This document shows, piece by piece, positions 2,409 through 12,655 of a stretch of 64,000 bases of DNA. The notes under the pieces were generated by a model that saw nothing but the letters and a program-made list of their open reading frames with translations, had not been told where the DNA came from and made no database searches. This DNA comes from Natrialba taiwanensis DSM 12281 (lineage in GTDB: Archaea > Halobacteriota > Halobacteria > Halobacteriales > Natrialbaceae), in assembly GCF_000337595.1 (NCBI RefSeq), contig NZ_AOIL01000034.1:24621-88620 (forward strand), in the 5' to 3' direction. Each line of letters opens with the position of its first letter. Within the stretch, counting starts at the first letter, position 1. A program made the position numbers and the translations under genes.

Positions 2409-3101
2409 TTAGATGCCCACAGAGACGCGTTCCCGCTGTATCTGTGTACCATCCCGTTCACTTCCGGCGACTAATGCGTCTTCGATAGCTTGACGGACGC
2501 GTTCGGGACTCGCCTCGCTACCCGCCTGACGGACGCTCCCCATGGCGTCCGGATCGAACGGAATATCGAGTTCTGCATAAACCGGCTCGAGGACGGCGAT
2601 AAGTTCGTCGCGGTCGCGAGGGACGACGATGCCGGCCGTCAGCGCCGCGTTCTGGCGAACGCGTTGGGCGATGCCGACGAGCTTTCCGCCGGCCGACAGG
2701 GAGTGCGTTCCGGGACAGAAGGCCGCTTCGGGCTCGCCCCGTTCGGACGCTACATCGACAGCATCGAGTGCGATCCGTAGTCGATCGAGAATCCGCTCGT
2801 AGCGGTCCGTCAATCCTGCTCGCTTGTCAGCCACTGTATCGATATGTGCGAAACAGATGGTCGTCCCCGTGTACGCCACTGCCCGGCCACCGACGCTGCG
2901 CTCGTATGTTCCGTATCCCAGCTTTCTGGCGGTTTCACACGCCCGTTCGTATCGGTCTTCCTGGACGTCTCGAGGTCCGAACGCGACGTGTCGAAGCGGA
3001 CGCCACACTCTGACGGCGGTTTCGATCGGTTCCGAGAGTAGTGATTGTGTTACCGCGTGATCCCGTTCGATGGTGGACGCTCGACCGCGGAGTACACGCA
3101 T
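2409..3101 (-). CDS. lplA: Lipoate-protein ligase A family protein
   Basis: Predicted to attach lipoate to the lipoyl domain of E2 proteins, here most likely the acetoin dehydrogenase E2 encoded at 7681-9024. The biotin/lipoate ligase fold is recognisable from SVGGRAVAY (69-77), which corresponds to the conserved substrate-binding loop, and SAGGKLVGIAQR (136-147), whose Lys140 matches the catalytic lysine of LplA. At 230 residues it lacks the C-terminal accessory domain of bacterial LplA, as in bipartite archaeal ligases; no partner subunit was seen in the window. A TATA-like CTTATTTC on the minus strand near 3127-3134 lies about 30 nt before the ATG, so the message is probably leaderless. 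It could alternatively be an octanoyltransferase. Confidence 0.8.
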   Translation of the reverse strand: MRVLRGRASTIERDHAVTQSLLSEPIETAVRVWRPLRHVAFGPRDVQEDRYERACETARKLGYGTYERSVGGRAVAYTGTTICFAHIDTVADKRAGLTDRYERILDRLRIALDAVDVASERGEPEAAFCPGTHSLSAGGKLVGIAQRVRQNAALTAGIVVPRDRDELIAVLEPVYAELDIPFDPDAMGSVRQAGSEASPERVRQAIEDALVAGSERDGTQIQRERVSVGI

Positions 3102-3239: not shown

Positions 3240-4316
3240 CTAGTCGTTCGGCTTGACAAGGATTTTGATGTGATCGCTTTCAGGATCAATGAGCCGCTCG
3301 AACCCGTCGTCGACAATTTCCTCGAGACCGATCTGGTCGGTGATAAACGGGTCGGGATCGAGTCGACCGTCGGCGAGCATGTCGATCACCATTCCGTACT
3401 CCTCGTCGGATCGAGGGCCGCCGAGATAGGCGAGCGTTCCAGTGACCGTCCGCTCACCGAGCACGAGGTTGTTCGGATGAGTGCTCACTTTTTCCTCCCA
3501 GATGCTCACGACAGTCATCTGACCGCTCGGAACCGTACTCTCAATTGCCGCGTTGAACGAGGCTTCGACACCCGCGACCTCGAACGAAACGTCGACACCG
3601 CCGTCGGTATTCGAGGCGATGTACTCGACGGGATCCGCATTCGAGGGATCGATGAGTTCGTCGGCGCCACACGCTACTGCGCGGTCGCGCCTGGCCTCTC
3701 GCGGTTCGGAAACGAATATCGACCTCGCGCCCGCGACCCGGGCGCACTGAATCACGGCCAACCCGATCGGCCCCGCTCCGAAGACCGCGACCGAATCGCC
3801 GGAGTGAAGTCCGGAGCGTCGCACCGCGTGCAACGCGACGGTTAGCGGTTCGACCAGCGCACCGTACTCGATCGGCACGTCGTCACCGAGTGCTACGGCG
3901 TGTTCCGCGTCTAGGACGACGCTTTCGGCGAATCCACCGCCGCCGCCCGAGAGTCCGATGAAGCCGATCGAATCACAGATGTGGTAGTTTCCTTCCCGAC
4001 ACTGGCGACACTTCCCGCAGGAGAGGATTGGGTTGACGGCGACGGCGTCACCCGAATCCAATCCCGTTACCCCCTCGCCAACGTCAGAGACGGTTCCGCT
4101 GAACTCGTGTCCCATCCTTATCGGTGCCGTTTCCTGCGACACTGGATGCGGTTCATCATCGGGTACGAAGATCGGTCCGGCAGTGTACTCGTGGAGATCT
4201 GAGCCACAGATACCGCACGAATCGATCTCGATACGAACCTGCCCTCTCCCGACGGCCTCCTGTTCAACGTCCTCGACACGGATGTCTTTCCGCCCGTGAT
4301 AGGTAACAGCTCTCAT
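3240..4316 (-). CDS. bdh: Zinc-dependent 2,3-butanediol dehydrogenase
   Basis: Medium-chain alcohol dehydrogenase predicted to oxidise 2,3-butanediol to acetoin (or sorbitol-like polyols) with NAD. CGICGSDLHEY (34-44) carries the catalytic-zinc cysteine, GHEFSG provides the conserved His-Glu pair, and the four-cysteine structural zinc lobe CGKCRQCREGNYHIC is present. The Rossmann motif GAGPIGL follows. The insert rich in DEPHP before GHEFSG is typical of butanediol dehydrogenases. The gene is divergent from acoA, with about 120 bases between the starts. On its strand TATATTTATC at 4344-4353 lies about 30 nt before the ATG. Divergence from acoAB supports the butanediol assignment over other polyols. 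Confidence 0.85.
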   Translation of the reverse strand: MRAVTYHGRKDIRVEDVEQEAVGRGQVRIEIDSCGICGSDLHEYTAGPIFVPDDEPHPVSQETAPIRMGHEFSGTVSDVGEGVTGLDSGDAVAVNPILSCGKCRQCREGNYHICDSIGFIGLSGGGGGFAESVVLDAEHAVALGDDVPIEYGALVEPLTVALHAVRRSGLHSGDSVAVFGAGPIGLAVIQCARVAGARSIFVSEPREARRDRAVACGADELIDPSNADPVEYIASNTDGGVDVSFEVAGVEASFNAAIESTVPSGQMTVVSIWEEKVSTHPNNLVLGERTVTGTLAYLGGPRSDEEYGMVIDMLADGRLDPDPFITDQIGLEEIVDDGFERLIDPESDHIKILVKPND

Positions 4317-4439: not shown

Positions 4440-5486
4440 ATGGAAGATTATACGCTAGACACGGAAGACGGCAGACTCGAAGCCTTGCGTCGAATGCTGA
4501 CGATCCGTGAATTCGATACGAAAGCCGGCGAGTACTTCGCCGACGGCGAAATTCCCGGATTCGTTCACCTGTATATCGGTGAGGAGGCGGTCGGTGTCGG
4601 GACATGTGCTGCTCTTGAACCGGACGATTACATTACCAGTACACACAGAGGCCACGGTCACTGCATCGCGAAGGGGCTGGACACCAAGCTGATGATGGCC
4701 GAACTGTTCGGCAAACGGAGCGGATACTGTAACGGGAAGGGTGGTTCAATGCACATCGCCGACGTAGACGCCGGGATGCTGGGCGCAAACGGCATCGTGG
4801 GTGCGGGCCCGCCGCTTGCGACCGGTGCCGCGTTGTCGATCGACTACCAGGACCGCGATCAGGTCGCGTTGGCCTTCCTTGGCGACGGCGCGGTCGCACA
4901 GGGACAGGTTCACGAGGCCGTGAACATGGCCTCGACGTGGGATCTTCCGGCGATTTTCCTGGTCGAAAACAACAAGTACGGTGAGGCCACGCCCGTCGAG
5001 AAGCAGCATAACGTCAAACAACTCAGTGACACCGCACAGGCCTACGATATTCCCGGGGTCACAGTCGACGGGATGGACGTGACGGCCGTAACCGAGGCCG
5101 TCGAAGAGGCGCGAAAGCGGGCGCGAGCCGGTGATGGGCCGACCATGATTGAAGCCGAGACCTACCGCTACAACGGCCACTACGAAGGTGACGAACAGAA
5201 CTACCGTGACGAGGAAGAGGTCGCACAGTGGAAGGAACGCGATGCAATCGAGTCTTTCAAGGAGCGACTTCTCGACCGCGGCGAACTGACCGAGGCGGAG
5301 TTCGGAGAGCTCCAGGCCGAGGTCGAGGACGAAATTGCCGACGCGGTTGAATACGCACAGAACTCCGACCTGCCGGAACCCGAGGAAGCTTACGAAGACA
5401 TGTTCAGCGAATCGGTACCCGAAGTCGAACAGTTCGCGAGCCGCCTCCGTACCGACGGTGGTTCCAGCCGAGGTGATTCGCAATGA
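4440..5486 (+). CDS. acoA: Acetoin dehydrogenase E1 component, alpha subunit (TPP-dependent)
   Basis: Alpha subunit of the thiamine-diphosphate E1 enzyme that cleaves acetoin (or decarboxylates a 2-oxoacid) and passes the acyl group to lipoyl-E2. The TPP motif runs from GDG (148-150) to the paired asparagines NN (177-178). The phosphorylation-loop region contains YRYNGHYEGD. The length of 348 residues is normal; the C-terminal tail of about 30 residues is acidic and variable. The stop overlaps the acoB start (ATGA at 5483), so the two subunits are translationally coupled. A short leader with GGAG precedes the ATG. The 2-oxoacid dehydrogenases are hard to tell apart by sequence; the acetoin assignment rests on the adjacent AcoX-like gene, butanediol dehydrogenase and acetoin reductase. 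Confidence 0.85.
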   Translation: MEDYTLDTEDGRLEALRRMLTIREFDTKAGEYFADGEIPGFVHLYIGEEAVGVGTCAALEPDDYITSTHRGHGHCIAKGLDTKLMMAELFGKRSGYCNGKGGSMHIADVDAGMLGANGIVGAGPPLATGAALSIDYQDRDQVALAFLGDGAVAQGQVHEAVNMASTWDLPAIFLVENNKYGEATPVEKQHNVKQLSDTAQAYDIPGVTVDGMDVTAVTEAVEEARKRARAGDGPTMIEAETYRYNGHYEGDEQNYRDEEEVAQWKERDAIESFKERLLDRGELTEAEFGELQAEVEDEIADAVEYAQNSDLPEPEEAYEDMFSESVPEVEQFASRLRTDGGSSRGDSQ

Positions 5487-6487
5487 CTGCTCAGGCAGAA
5501 CTCGAGCGGGAAGAGACGGAGACGATGACAGTCCGGGAGGCTATCCGAGAGGCATTGCGCGAGGAGTTGGCACGCGACGAGGATGTCTACATCATGGGTG
5601 AAGATGTCGGTGCGTTCGGCGGCGTCCTTGAGGTGACCGGTGACCTTTACGAGGAGTTCGGCGAGGAACGGGTCCGTGACACACCCATCGCCGAAGCCGG
5701 GTACGTCGGTGCTGCGACGGGAGCGGCCGCAACCGGAACGCGCCCTGTCATCGAGCTCATGTTCTCGGATTTCATCGGCGTTTCGATGGAACAGATCATG
5801 AACCAGATGGCGAAGATGCGGTACATGTTCGGTGGGAAGACCGAGATTCCTGTCACCGTTCGCGCAACCGAAGGTGGTGGGATGGGTGCTGCCAGCCAGC
5901 ACTCCGGAACAGTTCACGCGTGGATCTCACACTTCCCCGGCCTGAAAGCCGTCGCGCCGGGTACTGCTGCTGCCGCGAAGGGGCTGACGAAGGCCGCCAT
6001 CAGGTCAAACGACCCCGTGTTCGTCTTCGAGAACAAGATGATATACGAGCAGCAAGGAGATGTTCCAACTGACGAGGACTATATCGTTCCAATCGGCGAG
6101 GCGGCCGTCGAACGCGAGGGCGAGGATGTCACCGTGGTTGCGACCCAGCGACTTGTCGGCGAATCACTCGATGTCGCTGATCGCCTGGCCGGTGACGTGA
6201 GCGTCGAGGTCATCGACCCGCGTTCGCTCTATCCGCTCGACACTGAAACCATCGCCGAGAGTCTCAGAAAGACCGGACGGATGGTTGTCGCCGACGAGAC
6301 CCCGCTCTCGTATGGCACCCACGCCGAAATCATCACGCGGGCACAGGAAGAGGCGTTCTTCAGCCTCGACGCTCCCATCCAGCGCGTCGGTACGCCCGAT
6401 ACACACATGCCGTTCAGCACGCCGCTCGAACAGGAGGTCCTTCCCGACGGCGAGGGGGTCGAGAATGCCATCAGGCGGATAACCTGA
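5483..6487 (+). CDS. acoB: Acetoin dehydrogenase E1 component, beta subunit
   Basis: Beta subunit completing the E1 heterotetramer with AcoA. It has the transketolase-like pyrimidine-binding domain in the first half (MGEDVGAFGG, then DTPIAEAGYVGAATGAA) and the C-terminal transketolase domain (VIDPRSLYPLDTETI). The Glu in MGEDV corresponds to the residue that activates the TPP aminopyrimidine ring in this family. Its 334 residues are typical. It overlaps acoA by four bases and is followed seven bases later by the AcoX-like gene, so acoA-acoB-acoX form one operon. Confidence 0.87.
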   Translation: MTAQAELEREETETMTVREAIREALREELARDEDVYIMGEDVGAFGGVLEVTGDLYEEFGEERVRDTPIAEAGYVGAATGAAATGTRPVIELMFSDFIGVSMEQIMNQMAKMRYMFGGKTEIPVTVRATEGGGMGAASQHSGTVHAWISHFPGLKAVAPGTAAAAKGLTKAAIRSNDPVFVFENKMIYEQQGDVPTDEDYIVPIGEAAVEREGEDVTVVATQRLVGESLDVADRLAGDVSVEVIDPRSLYPLDTETIAESLRKTGRMVVADETPLSYGTHAEIITRAQEEAFFSLDAPIQRVGTPDTHMPFSTPLEQEVLPDGEGVENAIRRIT

Positions 6488-6493
6488 CCACAC

Positions 6494-7513
6494 GTGGCCC
6501 ACGTTGGACTCATCGTCAATCCATCGGCCGGCCGCGACATCCGCCGTCTCACTGGCGGTGCGAGCGTCGTCGACAACTACGCGAAACGCCGTGTCGCCGA
6601 GTGCGTCCTCGACGGCCTCTCTCTTGCCGGCGAGTTCCCCAGTGTCGCCGTTATGCCGGACAAGACTGGTATCGCCTCGCACGCCATCGCGGAAGCGCCC
6701 ACCAAGATGGACATCGAACCGGTCGAGATGCCCATCAAAGAATCAGCCGCGGACACGCGGCGCGCCGCAGCGCATTTCCGCGAGAGCGCCGACGTCGTCG
6801 TCGTTCTCGGCGGTGACGGGACGAGCCGCGACGCGGCACTCGAACTCGGCGACGTTCCGCTCGTCTCCGTCTCGACGGGAACGAACAACGTCGTGCCGAC
6901 GCCCGTCGATGGAACCGTCGCTGGCGCGGCCGCCGCCGCCGTTGCGAACGACGCGGTCGACGGCGACGCCGTGACCTACCGTCACGGACGGATCGACGTC
7001 CGAGCCGACGACGTCACCGGAGAGAAGCGACTCTCTGGTCTAGCGACCGTCGGCATCATTGATCGGTCGTTCGTCGGAACGCGGGCCGTTATCGATCCGT
7101 CGGAGCTACTCGGGGGCGTCGTTTCGCGGGCGCATCCCGCAGCCATCGGGCTCACCAGCGTCGCAGGGTGTATCGAACCGCTGGCTCCCAACGCACCCGG
7201 TGGAGCCGCACTTCGCCTCGGTGACCCCGATGAGACTGACCGGTCCGTCCGCGCGGTCCTCGCACCGGGAATGACGACGACGGTTGGCATCGAGGCACAC
7301 GAGCCGCTAGACTGGGACGAGCCGGCAACCTTCGCGGTAACGGACGGCGTCGTCGGCGCGGACGGAGAGCGTGAACTCGAGCTCACCGACGCGATCGTCA
7401 GTATAACGCCCACCGCCGACGGGCCACGTCTCGTGGACGTAGACACCGCCTTAGAGGCGGCCGCAGCAGCTGGATCCCTCGTCAGCAGTGAGACACCGAT
7501 TGGAGACCGATAA
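6494..7513 (+). CDS. acoX: AcoX-like protein, ATP-NAD kinase fold
   Basis: Member of the ATP-NAD kinase / diacylglycerol kinase fold family. The nucleotide-binding motif GGDGT is at 106-110, preceded by a hydrophobic strand, and an N-terminal GLIVNPSAGRD segment is conserved. AcoX is found in acetoin operons of bacteria, where its function is still not settled. Here it starts with GTG seven bases after acoB and ends the operon. Its presence is the strongest gene-level sign that this E1 works on acetoin rather than pyruvate or branched-chain acids. The N-terminal segment between residues 15 and 40 is consistent with the AcoX branch rather than true NAD kinase. Whether it phosphorylates NAD is unknown. 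Confidence 0.75.
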   Translation: MAHVGLIVNPSAGRDIRRLTGGASVVDNYAKRRVAECVLDGLSLAGEFPSVAVMPDKTGIASHAIAEAPTKMDIEPVEMPIKESAADTRRAAAHFRESADVVVVLGGDGTSRDAALELGDVPLVSVSTGTNNVVPTPVDGTVAGAAAAAVANDAVDGDAVTYRHGRIDVRADDVTGEKRLSGLATVGIIDRSFVGTRAVIDPSELLGGVVSRAHPAAIGLTSVAGCIEPLAPNAPGGAALRLGDPDETDRSVRAVLAPGMTTTVGIEAHEPLDWDEPATFAVTDGVVGADGERELELTDAIVSITPTADGPRLVDVDTALEAAAAAGSLVSSETPIGDR

Positions 7514-7680: not shown

Positions 7681-9024
7681 TTATTCCGTACCGCGGTACG
7701 ATTCGAGAACGAGTTCGGACGCACGTTCGGCCCGCTCAAAGAACCGCTGTAAGAAGGCGTCGGCCTCGGATTCGTCTATCGCTCGCGTGTCGTAGGTCAG
7801 ACTAGCAGTCACGAGTGGGCGGAGATCGACACCGCTGCCCTCTGGAACCGCCCGCTGGCCAGTCGCATCGAACTCGAGAGCCGCGACGCACGGTGGATTG
7901 ACGAGCATCCCGTCGGAGTCCGTCTTGGCCGCGTTTGCGAGGGTGAACGAGGGCTCTCCCTCGCTGTCATCGTCGAGCCGTTCGCGTGTGTCGACGATCT
8001 CGGTCAGCGACTTCTCCTCAACGTTCGGAACGACGCCCGTGTGGAGTTCGTCGTCGAGTTCGGTCACGAGGGCAATGTCCTGGCTTTCTCGGAGCTGGTG
8101 CGTCGATTCCGCGTAGATTCCGTTCATGAGCGGTCGATCCGCGAGCGCCGCCGAGGCGACCACGAGCAACACGTCGATACTCGTGACTCGCTCCTCGAAC
8201 GCCGACCGAACCGCTTCCGTGGTTTCGAGCAACGCCGTTCCGGCGGACGGGTCGGCCACAGCCGTGGCTCGCTCGAACCGGTTGGAAGCGGTCCGCTCGG
8301 GAGTGATTTGCCGAACTTCCGCACCGCTCTCCCGCGTGGCTTCAGCGGCCGCCTCGACGTCGTCTTCGGTGATCGAATCCATCGGTCCGGTACCCTCGAC
8401 GGACGTGAGGTCGACGCCGGCCTCCTCCGCGCGCTTTTTGGCTCGGGGAGAAGCTTTGATGGACTCTTCTCTCTCTGTCCCATCGCCGACTGCCGCCTCA
8501 ACGTCGTCCTCGGTGATCGAATCCATCGGCCCGGTACCCTCGACAGACATGAGGTCAACACCGAGTTCCTCCGCTCGACTCCGTGCTCGCGGGGACGCCT
8601 TCACTTCGGTCGTCTCCTCTGCGGCCGCGGGAGCGGCCGAACTTCTCGCGGACGCGGCCGATTGCGTCTCGGCCGTGACGGCATCGTCCTCCGTGTCCGA
8701 TGGGTCGGCTATGGTATCCCGTTCTGTTTCGGTCTTTCCGTCGATTTCGGCCTCGGCTTCGGCCTCGAGATCGGAGATATCAGTATCGGCCGCTGCGAGG
8801 ATACCAATCGGTGTGCCGGGTGGAACGGATTTGCCTTCCTCGACGTAGATCCGACGGAGGACACCGTCTTCACGCGCCTCGACCTCGCCGATACTCTTCT
8901 CGGATTCGACTTCGGCGAGCTTGTCCCCTTCCGACACGTCGTCTTCCGACTCACGGAACCATTCGAGGACGGTCCCCTGTTCCATTTCGAGCCCTAGCTT
9001 TGGCATCTTGATAATATACGCCAT
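7681..9024 (-). CDS. E2-type lipoyl protein of the acetoin dehydrogenase complex, catalytic histidine missing
   Basis: Domain order is a lipoyl domain (1-80, lipoyl-lysine Lys43 in ESEKS), an acidic linker, two peripheral-subunit (E3) binding domains in tandem, and a shortened 2-oxoacid dehydrogenase acyltransferase domain of about 200 residues. The two E3-binding copies (SPRARSRAEELGVDL and SPRAKKRAEEAGVDL, each ending GTGPMDSITEDDVEAA) are almost identical and 48 residues apart. The acyltransferase ends with LTYDTRAIDESEADAFL, where active E2 enzymes have DHRxxDG: the catalytic His is Thr and the Gly is Glu. It is transcribed towards acoX, with a TATA-like CGTTTTAG about 28 nt before the ATG. 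It may be a scaffold, an unusual acyltransferase, or rely on another enzyme. Confidence 0.82.
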   Translation of the reverse strand: MAYIIKMPKLGLEMEQGTVLEWFRESEDDVSEGDKLAEVESEKSIGEVEAREDGVLRRIYVEEGKSVPPGTPIGILAAADTDISDLEAEAEAEIDGKTETERDTIADPSDTEDDAVTAETQSAASARSSAAPAAAEETTEVKASPRARSRAEELGVDLMSVEGTGPMDSITEDDVEAAVGDGTEREESIKASPRAKKRAEEAGVDLTSVEGTGPMDSITEDDVEAAAEATRESGAEVRQITPERTASNRFERATAVADPSAGTALLETTEAVRSAFEERVTSIDVLLVVASAALADRPLMNGIYAESTHQLRESQDIALVTELDDELHTGVVPNVEEKSLTEIVDTRERLDDDSEGEPSFTLANAAKTDSDGMLVNPPCVAALEFDATGQRAVPEGSGVDLRPLVTASLTYDTRAIDESEADAFLQRFFERAERASELVLESYRGTE

Positions 9025-9226: not shown

Positions 9227-10039
9227 CTAGAGGACGTTCTGGAGAATGCCACCGTCGACGACCACGGACTGTCCAGTGACGTTCCGGTTCTCCGCGAAAA
9301 AGACGGCGAGTCTCCCCATGTCCTCAGGCGTCTGGTCGCGCCCCATCGGAATGGCTCGGTCGATAGTCTCGTCGTACGATTCGCCGATTTCCGGCGTCAA
9401 AACGTCTTCCCACATCGGAGTCTCGACGATTCCTGGACAGATAGCGTTGACCGTAACATCCGGCGCCAACTCGAGACTGAGCGACTTCGTGAGCCCGAGT
9501 ACGGCGTGTTTCGACGCACAGTAGTGTGCGAGGCCGGCGGCGCCGATCTCACCCGCGATGGAGGCGGTGTTGATGATGGTCCCCTCCGACTCGCGGAGGT
9601 GTGGAATCGCGGCGCGTGCCGCGAGGAACATCCCCTTCGCATTCACGTCCATTACCGTCTCCCACTCCGCTTCGGCCATCTCCTCGACCGGTGTGGCGGT
9701 GATGACGCCCGCGTTGTTTACGAGGACATCAATCCGACTGAACTCGTCGATGACCTCGTCGACCATCGCGTCGATCTGGGCTGCTTTCGTGACGTCACAG
9801 TCCACGACGTGTGCGCGCTGGTCTTCCGACTCGATGCGATCCACGAGTTCACGTGCACGCGTCGCCCCGCCGATCTCCGCGGATGATTTCTGGTTGTACT
9901 CCGTCTCCATGATGTCCACGTCGGCGATAACTACGTCACTTCCCGCAGCCGCGAGTTCTGTGGCGATCCCACCACCGATGTCTCCGCCGCCACCGGTCAC
10001 GATCGACACCGCTCCGTCTAGTGTGTTCTTGTCTACCAT
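9227..10039 (-). CDS. Short-chain dehydrogenase, probable acetoin/diacetyl reductase
   Basis: Classical SDR with an NAD(P)-binding glycine motif TGGGGDIGGG (15-24), an NNAG motif and the YCASK catalytic Tyr/Lys. The asparagine-rich region INTAS and the C-terminal VVVDGGI are standard. The acidic residues after the second strand (IADVD) favour NAD over NADP. Its place between the E2 and the esterase inside an acetoin/butanediol island suggests interconversion of diacetyl, acetoin and butanediol stereoisomers, alongside the zinc enzyme at 3240-4316. A TATA-like TTTATAATTATATAG at 10058-10072 lies about 25 nt before the ATG. SDR substrates cannot be fixed from sequence, so this rests on context. 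Confidence 0.72.
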   Translation of the reverse strand: MVDKNTLDGAVSIVTGGGGDIGGGIATELAAAGSDVVIADVDIMETEYNQKSSAEIGGATRARELVDRIESEDQRAHVVDCDVTKAAQIDAMVDEVIDEFSRIDVLVNNAGVITATPVEEMAEAEWETVMDVNAKGMFLAARAAIPHLRESEGTIINTASIAGEIGAAGLAHYCASKHAVLGLTKSLSLELAPDVTVNAICPGIVETPMWEDVLTPEIGESYDETIDRAIPMGRDQTPEDMGRLAVFFAENRNVTGQSVVVDGGILQNVL

Positions 10040-10178
10040 CGTCTCTCGATTAGAGGATCTATATAATTATAAATCATGGTGGCAAGAACCGAAACGGATG
10101 GACCGCGACAGACAATGGGACTGGTATCGGATGACGGAGACTCGTCGTGGCTTGTCCTCGAGAGGCGGGTGAACTCGC

Positions 10179-11120
10179 TTACTGCAACTCGTCTCGAACT
10201 CTCTCTCCGATTTCCTCGAGGGCCTCGTGTGCCCGATCCAGTTCCGGATCAGAGAGCATGATCAGGAACCCATGGATCATATCCTCATACTGCACGTGGT
10301 CGGTCGAAACGCCGGCTTCAGACAGCCGACTTGCGAGTTCCGTGCCGTCGTCGCGAAGCGGATCAAACCCGCACGTCAGAACGAGCGTGGGTGGGAGTCG
10401 GTCCAGGCTCTCGGTACGAAGCGGCGACGCGTACGGATGCTCACCGTCCAGTTCGCTCTGGAGGTACCCGTCCCAGAACCGCTCCATGTCCTTTCGCGTG
10501 ATGAAGTATCCCTGTGCGTTCTCCTCGTAGGACTCCGTATCGAACGCGTAGTCCGAAGCGGGGTACGCGAGCACTTGATAGTCGATCGCTGGTCCGTCCC
10601 GATCGCGTGCCAGGAGCCCGACGCCGAATGCGAGTGATCCCCCGGCGCTGTCTCCGGCGATAGCCAATGTATCGGGCCTGGCATCGATCGCTTCGGCGTT
10701 GTTCGCCACCCAGCACGTCGCGGCGTAACAATCCTCGAGTCCGGCTGGGAACCGGTGTTCGGGCGCGCGTCGGTAGTCGACGGAGATGACGATGCACTCG
10801 GTCGCGTTCGAGAGCGCCCGACACAGCGCGTCGTACGTCCCCAAATCCCCGAGCATCCATCCACCACCGTGGAAGAAGACAAGCGGTGGATGCGGTCCGT
10901 CCCCAATTGGCTTGTAAATCCGCACGGGGATATCCGTCGCTGGACCCGGGATAGTGCGGTCTATCACGGCTGCGACCGTGATTGGGGGTTCGCTGGGAAT
11001 GCTGAGATCGCGATATGTCTCACGGGCTTCTTCTAGTGACAGCCGGTAGAGCGGTGGTAAGCCCTGTTCTGACAGCCCGTGAAGGTACTTCTCGACTTGC
11101 GGGTGGAGTGTCGATGACAT
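10179..11120 (-). CDS. Alpha/beta hydrolase of the hormone-sensitive lipase group
   Basis: Cytoplasmic esterase-type hydrolase. The oxyanion-hole motif HGGG is at 84-87 and the nucleophile motif GDSAGG at 156-161 with Ser158. The acid and histidine of the triad are in DPLRDD and MIHGF near the C-terminus. The 313 residues are full length. It is divergent from the E3 gene and in the same island as the E2 that has lost its acyltransferase histidine. In some bacteria (Pseudomonas, Ralstonia) the AcoC protein has an alpha/beta-hydrolase catalytic domain in place of the usual E2 domain, so a role in acyl transfer or release is conceivable. That is inference; it may equally be an unrelated carboxylesterase. 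Confidence 0.8.
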   Translation of the reverse strand: MSSTLHPQVEKYLHGLSEQGLPPLYRLSLEEARETYRDLSIPSEPPITVAAVIDRTIPGPATDIPVRIYKPIGDGPHPPLVFFHGGGWMLGDLGTYDALCRALSNATECIVISVDYRRAPEHRFPAGLEDCYAATCWVANNAEAIDARPDTLAIAGDSAGGSLAFGVGLLARDRDGPAIDYQVLAYPASDYAFDTESYEENAQGYFITRKDMERFWDGYLQSELDGEHPYASPLRTESLDRLPPTLVLTCGFDPLRDDGTELASRLSEAGVSTDHVQYEDMIHGFLIMLSDPELDRAHEALEEIGERVRDELQ

Positions 11121-11230
11121 TGCTTCACTTATGCCATCCGTCTAGAGCGGCATAATTGTACCTTTTATCAGACGAAATAGAAAACGAGAAGGGTCCTCTT
11201 TTTTATCCTTCCGCGTGACAGTGACAGTAG

Positions 11231-12655
11231 ATGGTTGGAGAATCCATCCCGGTAGAAACGGATATAGTAGTGATTGGTGCCGGTCCCGGCGGATACGTAG
11301 CCGCTATCCGGGCTGCCCAATCCGGCTTCGACGTAGCGCTCGTCGAGAAAGATGCCTACGGTGGGACCTGCCTCAACGTCGGCTGCATTCCTTCGAAGGC
11401 ACTCATCGCAGCGGCCGATATCACACACGACGCTACTCACGCTGAGCACATGGGGATCCAAGCCGAACTCGACGTGGACTTCAGTCGAATGGTCGGCTGG
11501 AAGAACGATGTCGTGAAGCAACTCACCGGTGGCGTCGAGAAGCTCTGTACGGCCAACGGTGTAACCCTAATCGACGGGACTGCGACCTTTACAAGCGAAA
11601 CAGAGGTCCAGATCACACGGAACGGAACGAACCTCGGGTCAATCGCGTTTACTCACGCCGTCATCGCTACCGGGTCGCGTCCGGTCGAACTCCCCGAGTT
11701 CCCATTCGATGGCGAATACGTTCTCTCCTCGACGCACGCGCTCGGACTCGAGTCGCTTCCCGAACGGCTGCTCGTCGTCGGCGCGGGCTACATTGGTATG
11801 GAACTCTCGACGGTGTTCGCCAAACTTGGCGTCGACGTGACGGTCGTCGAAATGCTCGATCAGGTACTGCCCGGCTACGAGCGGGATATCGCTCGCGTCG
11901 TCAGGAAGCGCGCCGAAAGCCTCGGTATCAACTTCCACTTTGGCGAAGGGGCCCGTGGCTGGGAGGCAACCGGCCGCGGTGTCCGCGTCTTCACTGAGAG
12001 TGACGACGCCGACCGGTCCGAATACGAGGCTGACCGCGTGGTAGTCGCCGTCGGACGGGAGCCCGTCACCGACACGATTAACCTGGGAGCAGCAGGTATC
12101 GAGACCGACGATCGGGGGTTCATTCCGACCGACAAGCAGACTCGAACTGTCGCCGAACGGATTTTCGCCGTCGGCGACGTCGTCGGCGAGCCACTGCTCG
12201 CCCACAAGGCAAGCAAGGAGGGCGAAATTGCGGCCGACGTTATCGCTGGCGAGGCGGCCACATTCGACTCCCGAGCAATTCCGGCCGCCGTCTTCACCGA
12301 TCCCGAAATCTGCACGGTCGGGATGACCGAGGCCGAGGCCGAGGCCGAGAACGCGGGTCTCGATCCAGTCGTCGGACGGATGCCGATGCGAGCCTCGGGG
12401 CGTGCACTTACGTTCGGCGAGACTGATGGGTTCGTGCGTATCGTCGCGAACGGGAGCTCCGGCACGGTCCTCGGCGCGCAGCTAGTCTGTCCCGACGCCT
12501 CGGAGCTAGCTGCTGAACTCGCCCTGGCTATCGAGACGGAGGCCACGCTAGAAGATATCGCAACGACGGTTCACACGCACCCGACTCTCACCGAGGCGGT
12601 CATGGAGGCGGCCGCGAACGCTCGCGGCGAAGCGGTCCACACGCTCAACAACTGA
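11231..12655 (+). CDS. lpdA: Dihydrolipoyl dehydrogenase (E3)
   Basis: FAD-dependent E3 that reoxidises dihydrolipoyl groups on E2 with NAD. It has the FAD motif GAGPGG (16-21), the redox disulfide GGTCLNVGCIPSK (Cys47, Cys52), the NAD-binding motif GAGYIGMEL and the second FAD motif AVGDV. The active-site His-Glu pair of the dimer interface sits in HTHPTLTEA near the C-terminus. All residues needed for activity are there. The T-rich box TTTTTTAT at 11202-11209 lies about 25 nt before the ATG, giving a leaderless transcript divergent from the esterase. It is the only E3 in the window and would dock on the two E3-binding domains of the E2. Confidence 0.93.
   Translation: MVGESIPVETDIVVIGAGPGGYVAAIRAAQSGFDVALVEKDAYGGTCLNVGCIPSKALIAAADITHDATHAEHMGIQAELDVDFSRMVGWKNDVVKQLTGGVEKLCTANGVTLIDGTATFTSETEVQITRNGTNLGSIAFTHAVIATGSRPVELPEFPFDGEYVLSSTHALGLESLPERLLVVGAGYIGMELSTVFAKLGVDVTVVEMLDQVLPGYERDIARVVRKRAESLGINFHFGEGARGWEATGRGVRVFTESDDADRSEYEADRVVVAVGREPVTDTINLGAAGIETDDRGFIPTDKQTRTVAERIFAVGDVVGEPLLAHKASKEGEIAADVIAGEAATFDSRAIPAAVFTDPEICTVGMTEAEAEAENAGLDPVVGRMPMRASGRALTFGETDGFVRIVANGSSGTVLGAQLVCPDASELAAELALAIETEATLEDIATTVHTHPTLTEAVMEAAANARGEAVHTLNN

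Follow-up and report, generated by a model that had tools for sequence, protein, structure and literature searches.

Background

How can a lipoyl arm be unloaded if the E2 protein which carries it has lost the catalytic His of its acyltransferase domain? E2 chemistry is usually presented as one mechanism, that of a CAT-fold trimer with this residue. The question is raised by an E2-like gene (7681..9024, minus strand) of Natrialba taiwanensis DSM 12281. It is located in the window, by which we mean the whole stretch of 64,000 nucleotides that was analysed.

The plus strand around the gene encodes an acoA-like E1 alpha (4440..5486; assigned by Pfam, with the NCBIfam models below cut-off), an acoB-like E1 beta (5483..6487; Pfam and NCBIfam), an acoX-like protein of the NAD-kinase family (6494..7513; Pfam), and dihydrolipoyl dehydrogenase, E3 (11231..12655; NCBIfam TIGR01350, 522 bits at a cut-off of 408.8). 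The AcoX protein, which shares 97% identity with its Natrialba aegyptia counterpart, served as the anchor of our comparisons. The minus strand carries the gene of a lipoate/octanoate ligase-transferase-like protein (2409..3101; Pfam PF21948), which is a possible source of lipoylation, and that of a zinc alcohol dehydrogenase (3240..4316; Pfam), possibly a butanediol dehydrogenase. Three further genes share this direction: the E2-like gene; a short-chain dehydrogenase gene (9227..10039), similar to acetoin/butanediol dehydrogenases at scores below the curated NCBIfam cut-offs; and an Abhydrolase_3 gene (10179..11120), which lies two genes from the E2-like one, on the other side of the short-chain dehydrogenase.

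Judging by these gene neighbours only (acoX and the dehydrogenases), acetoin is the presumed substrate of the complex. The gene acoX is described as typical of acetoin dehydrogenase clusters (PMC3543383). The E1 of Haloferax oadhAB3, possibly the AcoX cluster of that genus, shares 54%/47% identity with BSU08060/BSU08070, the acetoin enzyme of Bacillus, and the same source reports no identified substrate for it (PMC8305020).

Results

The E2-like protein (447 aa) consists of a lipoyl domain (residues 5-75, 8800..9012; Pfam PF00364), two E3-binding domains (Pfam PF02817) and a degenerate 2-oxoacid acyltransferase domain of the CAT fold (residues 262-439, 7708..8241; supported by Pfam PF00198, an AlphaFold2 model and a fold search), all on the minus strand. 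The first E3-binding domain occupies approximately residues 143-178 (8491..8598, minus strand; limits taken from the sequence) and the second one, which the first-pass annotation does not mention, residues 189-224 (8353..8460, minus strand). The PF00198 match reaches 62 bits at a cut-off of 23; it covers profile positions 38-231 of 232 and is N-terminally incomplete. Two other PF00198 proteins of this genome score 304 and 229 bits.

The tandem E3-binding domains are very similar to each other. A second copy is seen in most printed alignment rows, those of the DHR type included; in L058 and L070, one copy is degenerate.

The motif DHRxxDG is replaced by DTRAIDE (7771..7791, minus strand), and a Thr codon, ACG (7786-7788), stands where the catalytic His is expected. 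The first-pass annotation had proposed both His to Thr and Gly to Glu, and the ORF translation and the alignment agree with it. In the phmmer alignment with human PDH E2, 'DhRvvDg' corresponds to 'DtRaiDe' and 'FTISN' to 'FTLAN'. In the E2 of Natrialba aegyptia, at 97% identity, the motif is DTRAIDG; both proteins have Thr for His, and only the window protein has Glu for Gly.

A second position is affected. Ala363 of FTLAN (7936..7938, minus strand) occupies in the alignment the place where FT[IV][ST]N has Ser or Thr, to which we assign the oxyanion role. We also equate the FTIS serine and the DHR histidine with Ser558 and His610 of Azotobacter E2p. The titles of the structure entries 1dpb, 1dpc and 1dpd name roles of Ser558, His610 and Asn614 in that enzyme.

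FTLANAAK, VNPPCVAALEF and the lipoyl lysine, which had been described as intact, are all present; the lysine is K43 in ESEKS (codon 8896..8898, minus strand), invariant in 20 of the 20 aligned His-less proteins. Of the features of an E2, the window protein has a lipoyl domain with K43, E3-binding domains and a CAT-like fold, and it has neither the catalytic His nor the oxyanion Ser/Thr. It scores 71.7 bits against NF011457, the model of the hydrolase-type acetoin E2, for which the cut-off is 307.

The same gene was compared with its relatives in two samples. The AcoX-anchored scan took the best 80 of 244 loci from named records, not selected by E2 type, and 20 further neighbourhoods (13 His-less, 7 DHR) were hand-picked from E2 matches. 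The AcoX loci, these neighbourhoods and the window, less nine duplicates and L084, whose contig stops before an E2, left 69 distinct acoA-acoB-acoX clusters of haloarchaea that include an E2. Bacterial loci served as an outgroup or for architecture only, and L141 (G133), an incomplete cluster whose contig ends inside E1 alpha, is outside the His-less set. The DHR E2s of L050 and L107 and the hydrolase of L071 are split over frames and were scored as present.

The His is absent from 22 of the 69 clusters, while 47 are of the DHR type. The triplet at this place is DTR in 13 of the 22 (the window included), DAR in 3, DSR in 2, and DTN, DPR, DTH and HPR in one each, so that none has His at the catalytic place; the tally also included two extra E2-like proteins, from L082 (DHR) and L052 (DHD). 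In the full alignment, which comprises 20 of the 22 proteins (L060 and L095 left out), the oxyanion position is Ala in 16, Gly in 3, Glu in 1 and Ser/Thr in none. The standard E2 base is thus gone, as the annotation had it, and the comparison with other haloarchaeal acetoin-cluster E2s, which it had recommended, reveals a recurrent loss. Its view that the gene is not simply decaying also stands, considering the intact ORF and a His loss common to 22 distinct clusters. A sequencing error or a single decaying copy was considered and is ruled out by the same loss in all these clusters, which is far beyond chance. A separate search with the E2 in 293 genomes drawn from the order gave matches in 229; among the best 30 E2 loci, 13 were His-less (own included) and 17 had DHRxxDG.

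Some variants of the site are odd. In L067 (11183-12541) it reads YDTHAIDG, with His one place on, and in L095 (15950-17119) YHPRAVGN. The E2s near AcoX in three Desulfovibrio-type MAGs (L116, L118 and L122) read NHM.TDG, with His kept and the flanking Asp and Arg altered; L122 has a second E2 with DHRVLDG.

Related clusters contain OsmC domains. By a phmmer count, 28 of the 47 DHR-type AcoX-cluster E2s have such a domain at the C-terminus; the complete order (lipoyl, two E3-binding, CAT, OsmC) was obtained with Pfam for L053 only (9400-11214). A separate OsmC gene, not fused, is found beside E1 alpha in three His-less clusters (L046:5439-6017, L045 and L060), and a separate one also occurs in three DHR loci (L080, L108 and L115). 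In bacteria, lipoylated proteins reduce OsmC/Ohr enzymes; by analogy, the OsmC fusion may give these E2s a peroxidase of their own that is driven by the lipoyl arm.

Residues 232-447 were modelled with AlphaFold2 at a mean pLDDT of 84.6, and the fold search against solved E2 cores gives Z of about 20-22. Human E3BP (6h60) is matched with Z 21.2 (2.5 A over 187 residues), a tie with active E2 cores; therefore, the fold alone does not separate a scaffold from an enzyme. Taken together with the lost active site, the modelled fold best suits one option of the first-pass annotation, namely that the domain is only a scaffold. We conclude that the CAT domain of the window protein is most likely a dead scaffold.

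Other E2-like genes were sought in the genomes concerned. All 14 His-less genomes searched encode a canonical E2 elsewhere, at about 300 bits, and four of them (G000, G240, G249 and G050) have a strong standalone E2 core (223-231 bits, open frame of 248-284 aa). Weaker short E2-like frames (about 48-60 bits) occur in several genomes of both kinds, with G240, G249 and G279 among the His-less ones. The genome of the window has a second E1-like cluster with a split E2 (L002:1348-2184; G000, contig C32), where a lipoyl protein (132-aa open frame) is encoded just upstream of a 278-aa CAT core with DHRLVDG, as a separate gene; Pfam found no E3-binding domain in this core.

The Abhydrolase_3 gene (Pfam PF07859; minus strand) encodes an alpha/beta-hydrolase of the LipP1-type hormone-sensitive-lipase (HSL) family, to which both its score (NCBIfam NF058653, 427 bits at a cut-off of 350) and its intact triad assign it. 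It has the family motifs HGGGW and G[DE]S[AS]G and the family Asp and His. From our knowledge of the family, we take S158 of GDSAGG (the nucleophile, codon 10647..10649), D253 (10362-10364) and H283 (10272-10274), all on the minus strand, to be the catalytic Ser-Asp-His triad. Neither these columns nor HGGGW vary among the 20 sequences aligned (17 cluster, 3 non-cluster). The nearest solved structure by both sequence and fold is Est8 (4ypv; 282 bits, TM 0.90, 45% identity).

Haloarchaea often have HSL hydrolases with about 50% identity to this one (221 of the 293 genomes give matches at E <= 1e-60), and most of them are presumably esterases. The 16 best matches of the hydrolase search belong to the 14 His-less genomes with sampled clusters (G050 as a fusion) and to G111 and G133, both fusions; next come haloarchaeal relatives outside clusters, with about 50% identity (contexts checked for three).

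The presence of the hydrolase coincides with the loss of His, a link that the first-pass annotation does not draw. Searched with a profile of the window hydrolase, every one of the 22 His-less clusters contains a copy and none of the 47 DHR clusters does so in the stretches covered, where 11 of the 69 loci are without the full 7.5 kb on both sides and a hydrolase further out could be missed. The AcoX-anchored loci alone give 12/12 versus 0/43 (duplicates with the hand-picked set kept). A reference-free count of gene families within 7.5 kb of AcoX, whose crude gene caller misses genes (AcoX itself was called in only 16/22 and 20/47), places the hydrolase at the top among families found in at least five loci (18/22 versus 0/47), followed by E3 (6/22 versus 0/47), IclR (6/22 versus 0/47) and zinc dehydrogenase (7/22 versus 2/47). 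All these association counts ignore kinship. The position of the hydrolase gene varies: it is beside the E2-like gene in some clusters and upstream of E1 alpha in others; in L071 (a MAG) it is split over two frames.

Kinship was addressed with a tree of E1 alpha, E1 beta and AcoX (a quick method, with a long-branch warning), on which the trait switches three times, on well-supported branches. One of the switches separates L043 (His-less, with the hydrolase) from its nearest rows L047 and L048 (DHR, without it). The three independent pairs are all concordant; since there are only three, p = 0.25 (p < 0.05 takes six or more concordant pairs) and the association is not yet phylogenetically significant, and shared descent or cassette transfer could explain much of it. 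The lipoyl-domain tree (72 lipoyl rows, including three fusions and the second L082 E2; bacterial outgroup loci excluded) has 80 columns, which are too few to resolve whether the His-less E2s are one clade.

In three loci the hydrolase is fused to a lipoyl domain. Pfam recognizes lipoyl, E3-binding and Abhydrolase_3 domains in L043 (13917-15530, minus strand) and L141 (9478-11157, plus strand), and lipoyl and Abhydrolase_3 domains across a run of N in L095 (6173-7789, plus strand); no CAT domain was found by Pfam in any of the three fusions. The clusters L043 and L095, where the fusion is the cluster hydrolase, also hold a His-less E2-like gene, which in L095 is cut by the contig end; the G111 match is on the same contig as L095. 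The fusions L043 and L141 score 80 and 74 bits against NF011457, below the cut-off of 307, which the bacterial L135 and L132 exceed with 405 and 493 bits. The bacterial layout according to Pfam is lipoyl, E3-binding and alpha/beta-hydrolase in L135, and lipoyl and alpha/beta-hydrolase in L132 and L123. The bacterial and haloarchaeal hydrolase families differ in both Pfam and NCBIfam, which suggests separate recruitments, although it does not prove them. In the literature searched, mostly at the level of titles and abstract starts, we met no description of the mechanism of the alpha/beta-hydrolase-type acetoin E2.

Cap hydrophobicity was considered as a test for an acyltransferase versus a hydrolase and was rejected, since it fails to separate the cluster hydrolases from the non-cluster ones. 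The 22 cluster hydrolases, of which two are parts of fusions, give values of 14.6-23.2 (the L071 fragment, 0.8, was excluded; its N-terminus is in another frame, which was counted), and three non-cluster ones give 25.1, 13.7 and 19.4, with a published library mean of 13.65; the scale gave 18.22 for EST2, where 18.2 is published. These values allow acyl transfer.

Discussion

We believe that the hydrolase gene beside the His-less E2 probably does the acetyl hand-over in its place. The mechanism that we favour, and consider rather probable, combines a dead CAT scaffold with a serine acyl-enzyme hydrolase which unloads acetyl-lipoyl in trans, most likely to CoA. E1 would load the acetyl group onto the lipoyl arm; the cluster hydrolase (10179-11120) would take it from the arm onto its Ser and hand it to an acceptor, which is most likely CoA and possibly water; and E3 would reoxidise the arm. 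The CAT-fold domain would be catalytically dead and act as a scaffold, while the lipoyl arm and the two E3-binding domains would stay in use. The usual His-based transfer would then be replaced by the route from acetyl-lipoyl through acetyl-serine to acetyl-CoA. This reading is favoured by the co-occurrence of the hydrolase with the His-less E2, by its staying in the cluster while its position varies, by the fusions with a lipoyl domain and by the bacterial E2s of similar layout.

Both the action of the hydrolase on acetyl-lipoyl and CoA as the acceptor are what we infer, and the route is proposed from the invariant triad, the relation to Est8 and two published observations. An HSL-family Est8 is reported to transfer acyl groups in water, although weakly, and product hydrolysis soon dominates (PMC7383625; this Est8 is entry 6Y9K, possibly the 4ypv protein). 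ABHD11, a mammalian alpha/beta-hydrolase, cleaves glutaryl-lipoyl thioesters on an E2 (PMC12643935).

The main rival, which we regard as unlikely, accepts the action on the arm and differs in the acceptor: the hydrolase would be a thioesterase of acetyl-lipoyl, and the released acetate would later be activated by acetyl-CoA synthetase. HSL-family enzymes are mostly hydrolases, and ABHD11 is a thioesterase that hydrolyses the acyl group off the lipoyl arm of an E2; modelling could not place CoA in its pocket (PMC12643935). However, such a step would waste the thioester, and proteins with this layout in bacteria carry the name acetyltransferase, although by annotation only. Besides the hydrolase, only E3, IclR and zinc dehydrogenase are clearly enriched near His-less clusters; an acetate-activating enzyme could lie elsewhere.

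A further explanation dispenses with the hydrolase. The window protein could belong to a mixed core in the manner of protein X, where another active E2 of the cell transfers the acetyl group and the hydrolase is an unrelated esterase. The layout (lipoyl, E3-binding and a CAT fold without His) is the same, E3BP is matched as well as the active E2s are, and the canonical E2 present in all 14 genomes could supply the activity. We nevertheless find this explanation quite improbable: the stretches surrounding the 22 His-less clusters yielded no E2 of the DHR type, and both the association with the hydrolase and the lipoyl-hydrolase fusions are left unexplained. The strong standalone core occurs in only four of the 14 genomes, and here it is paired with its own lipoyl gene. 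A split E2 with the core of contig C32 as the missing catalyst was rejected on these same two grounds as not general.

It is very unlikely that the domain is still an acyltransferase in which some other residue replaces His, as another option of the first-pass annotation would have it. The fold and several residues are indeed kept, Y411-D412 and T308-H309 being invariant in the 20 His-less proteins. Against this, the position of His varies among Thr, Ala, Ser and Pro, and the window protein and its closest relatives have a shorter loop ahead of FTLAN. The invariant residues of the 20 proteins were screened for a substitute base, and nothing new and suitable stood out; H309 is also present in DHR relatives (printed alignment rows) and is therefore not new. 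Since the oxyanion Ser/Thr is lost too (in all 20) while a confident model keeps the CAT fold, a substitute base within this protein is unlikely.

Finally, the hydrolase could act upstream only, e.g., by freeing acetoin or butanediol from acetate esters, with the His loss a lineage coincidence linked by descent; the three independent switches only and the plasmid-borne His-less clusters (L055 and L067, by record titles), which imply that cassettes may move, would agree with this, but the fusions of the hydrolase with a lipoyl domain are hard to explain so, and we give it very little credence.

Returning to the transfer through the hydrolase, a broader claim can be put forward: the His-acyltransferase of E2 would have been replaced at least twice by unrelated alpha/beta-hydrolases, i.e., by a fused Abhydrolase_1 in bacteria and, in haloarchaea, by a LipP1/HSL protein that acts in trans or is fused, the former CAT domain surviving there only as a scaffold. 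For this claim we consider the arguments evenly balanced. If the hydrolase does the step, complexes of this type can empty the lipoyl arm in a second, modular manner, for which bacteria offer a parallel, and the serine acyl-enzyme chemistry would be unlike the textbook direct transfer. It would also explain the persistence of His-less haloarchaeal E2s and the role of the hydrolase-type bacterial acetoin E2s. The 22 clusters with the swap, the 47 without it and the natural fusions present a natural test system.

Comparison with known systems

ABHD11 resembles the proposed system in that an alpha/beta-hydrolase acts on the acyl-lipoyl arm of a 2-oxoacid dehydrogenase E2; however, it is a repair thioesterase beside an active E2 and no replacement (PMC12643935). 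Est8 and the bacterial HSL esterases are the closest solved relatives of the window hydrolase, but they are esterases, and no link with a lipoyl protein is named in the titles of the entries listed.

PDHX (protein X) lacks the catalytic His and has an active E2 as its neighbour within one complex. It shares with the window protein the lipoyl and E3-binding domains and the CAT fold (the match with 6h60 being tied with those of active E2s); in contrast, the window cluster has a hydrolase, and a DHR-type E2 was not found in it. A literature search on PDHX and histidine gave no match.

The haloarchaeal DHR-type E2s belong to the same cluster (E1 alpha, E1 beta and AcoX) and have a lipoyl and a double E3-binding domain (by Pfam, in L016 and L053 only). 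They differ in that DHRxxDG and the oxyanion Ser/Thr are kept, the stretch has no hydrolase gene, and OsmC is attached at the C-terminus in the 28 of 47 mentioned above.

The bacterial acetoin E2 of NF011457/PRK14875, presumably AcoC, also has adjoining E1-type genes, and its lipoyl arm (with an E3-binding domain in L135) is coupled to an alpha/beta-hydrolase instead of CAT. The difference is that the bacterial hydrolase is of Abhydrolase_1/6 and fused, whereas that of the window is an Abhydrolase_3 protein encoded by a separate gene, with the dead CAT kept.
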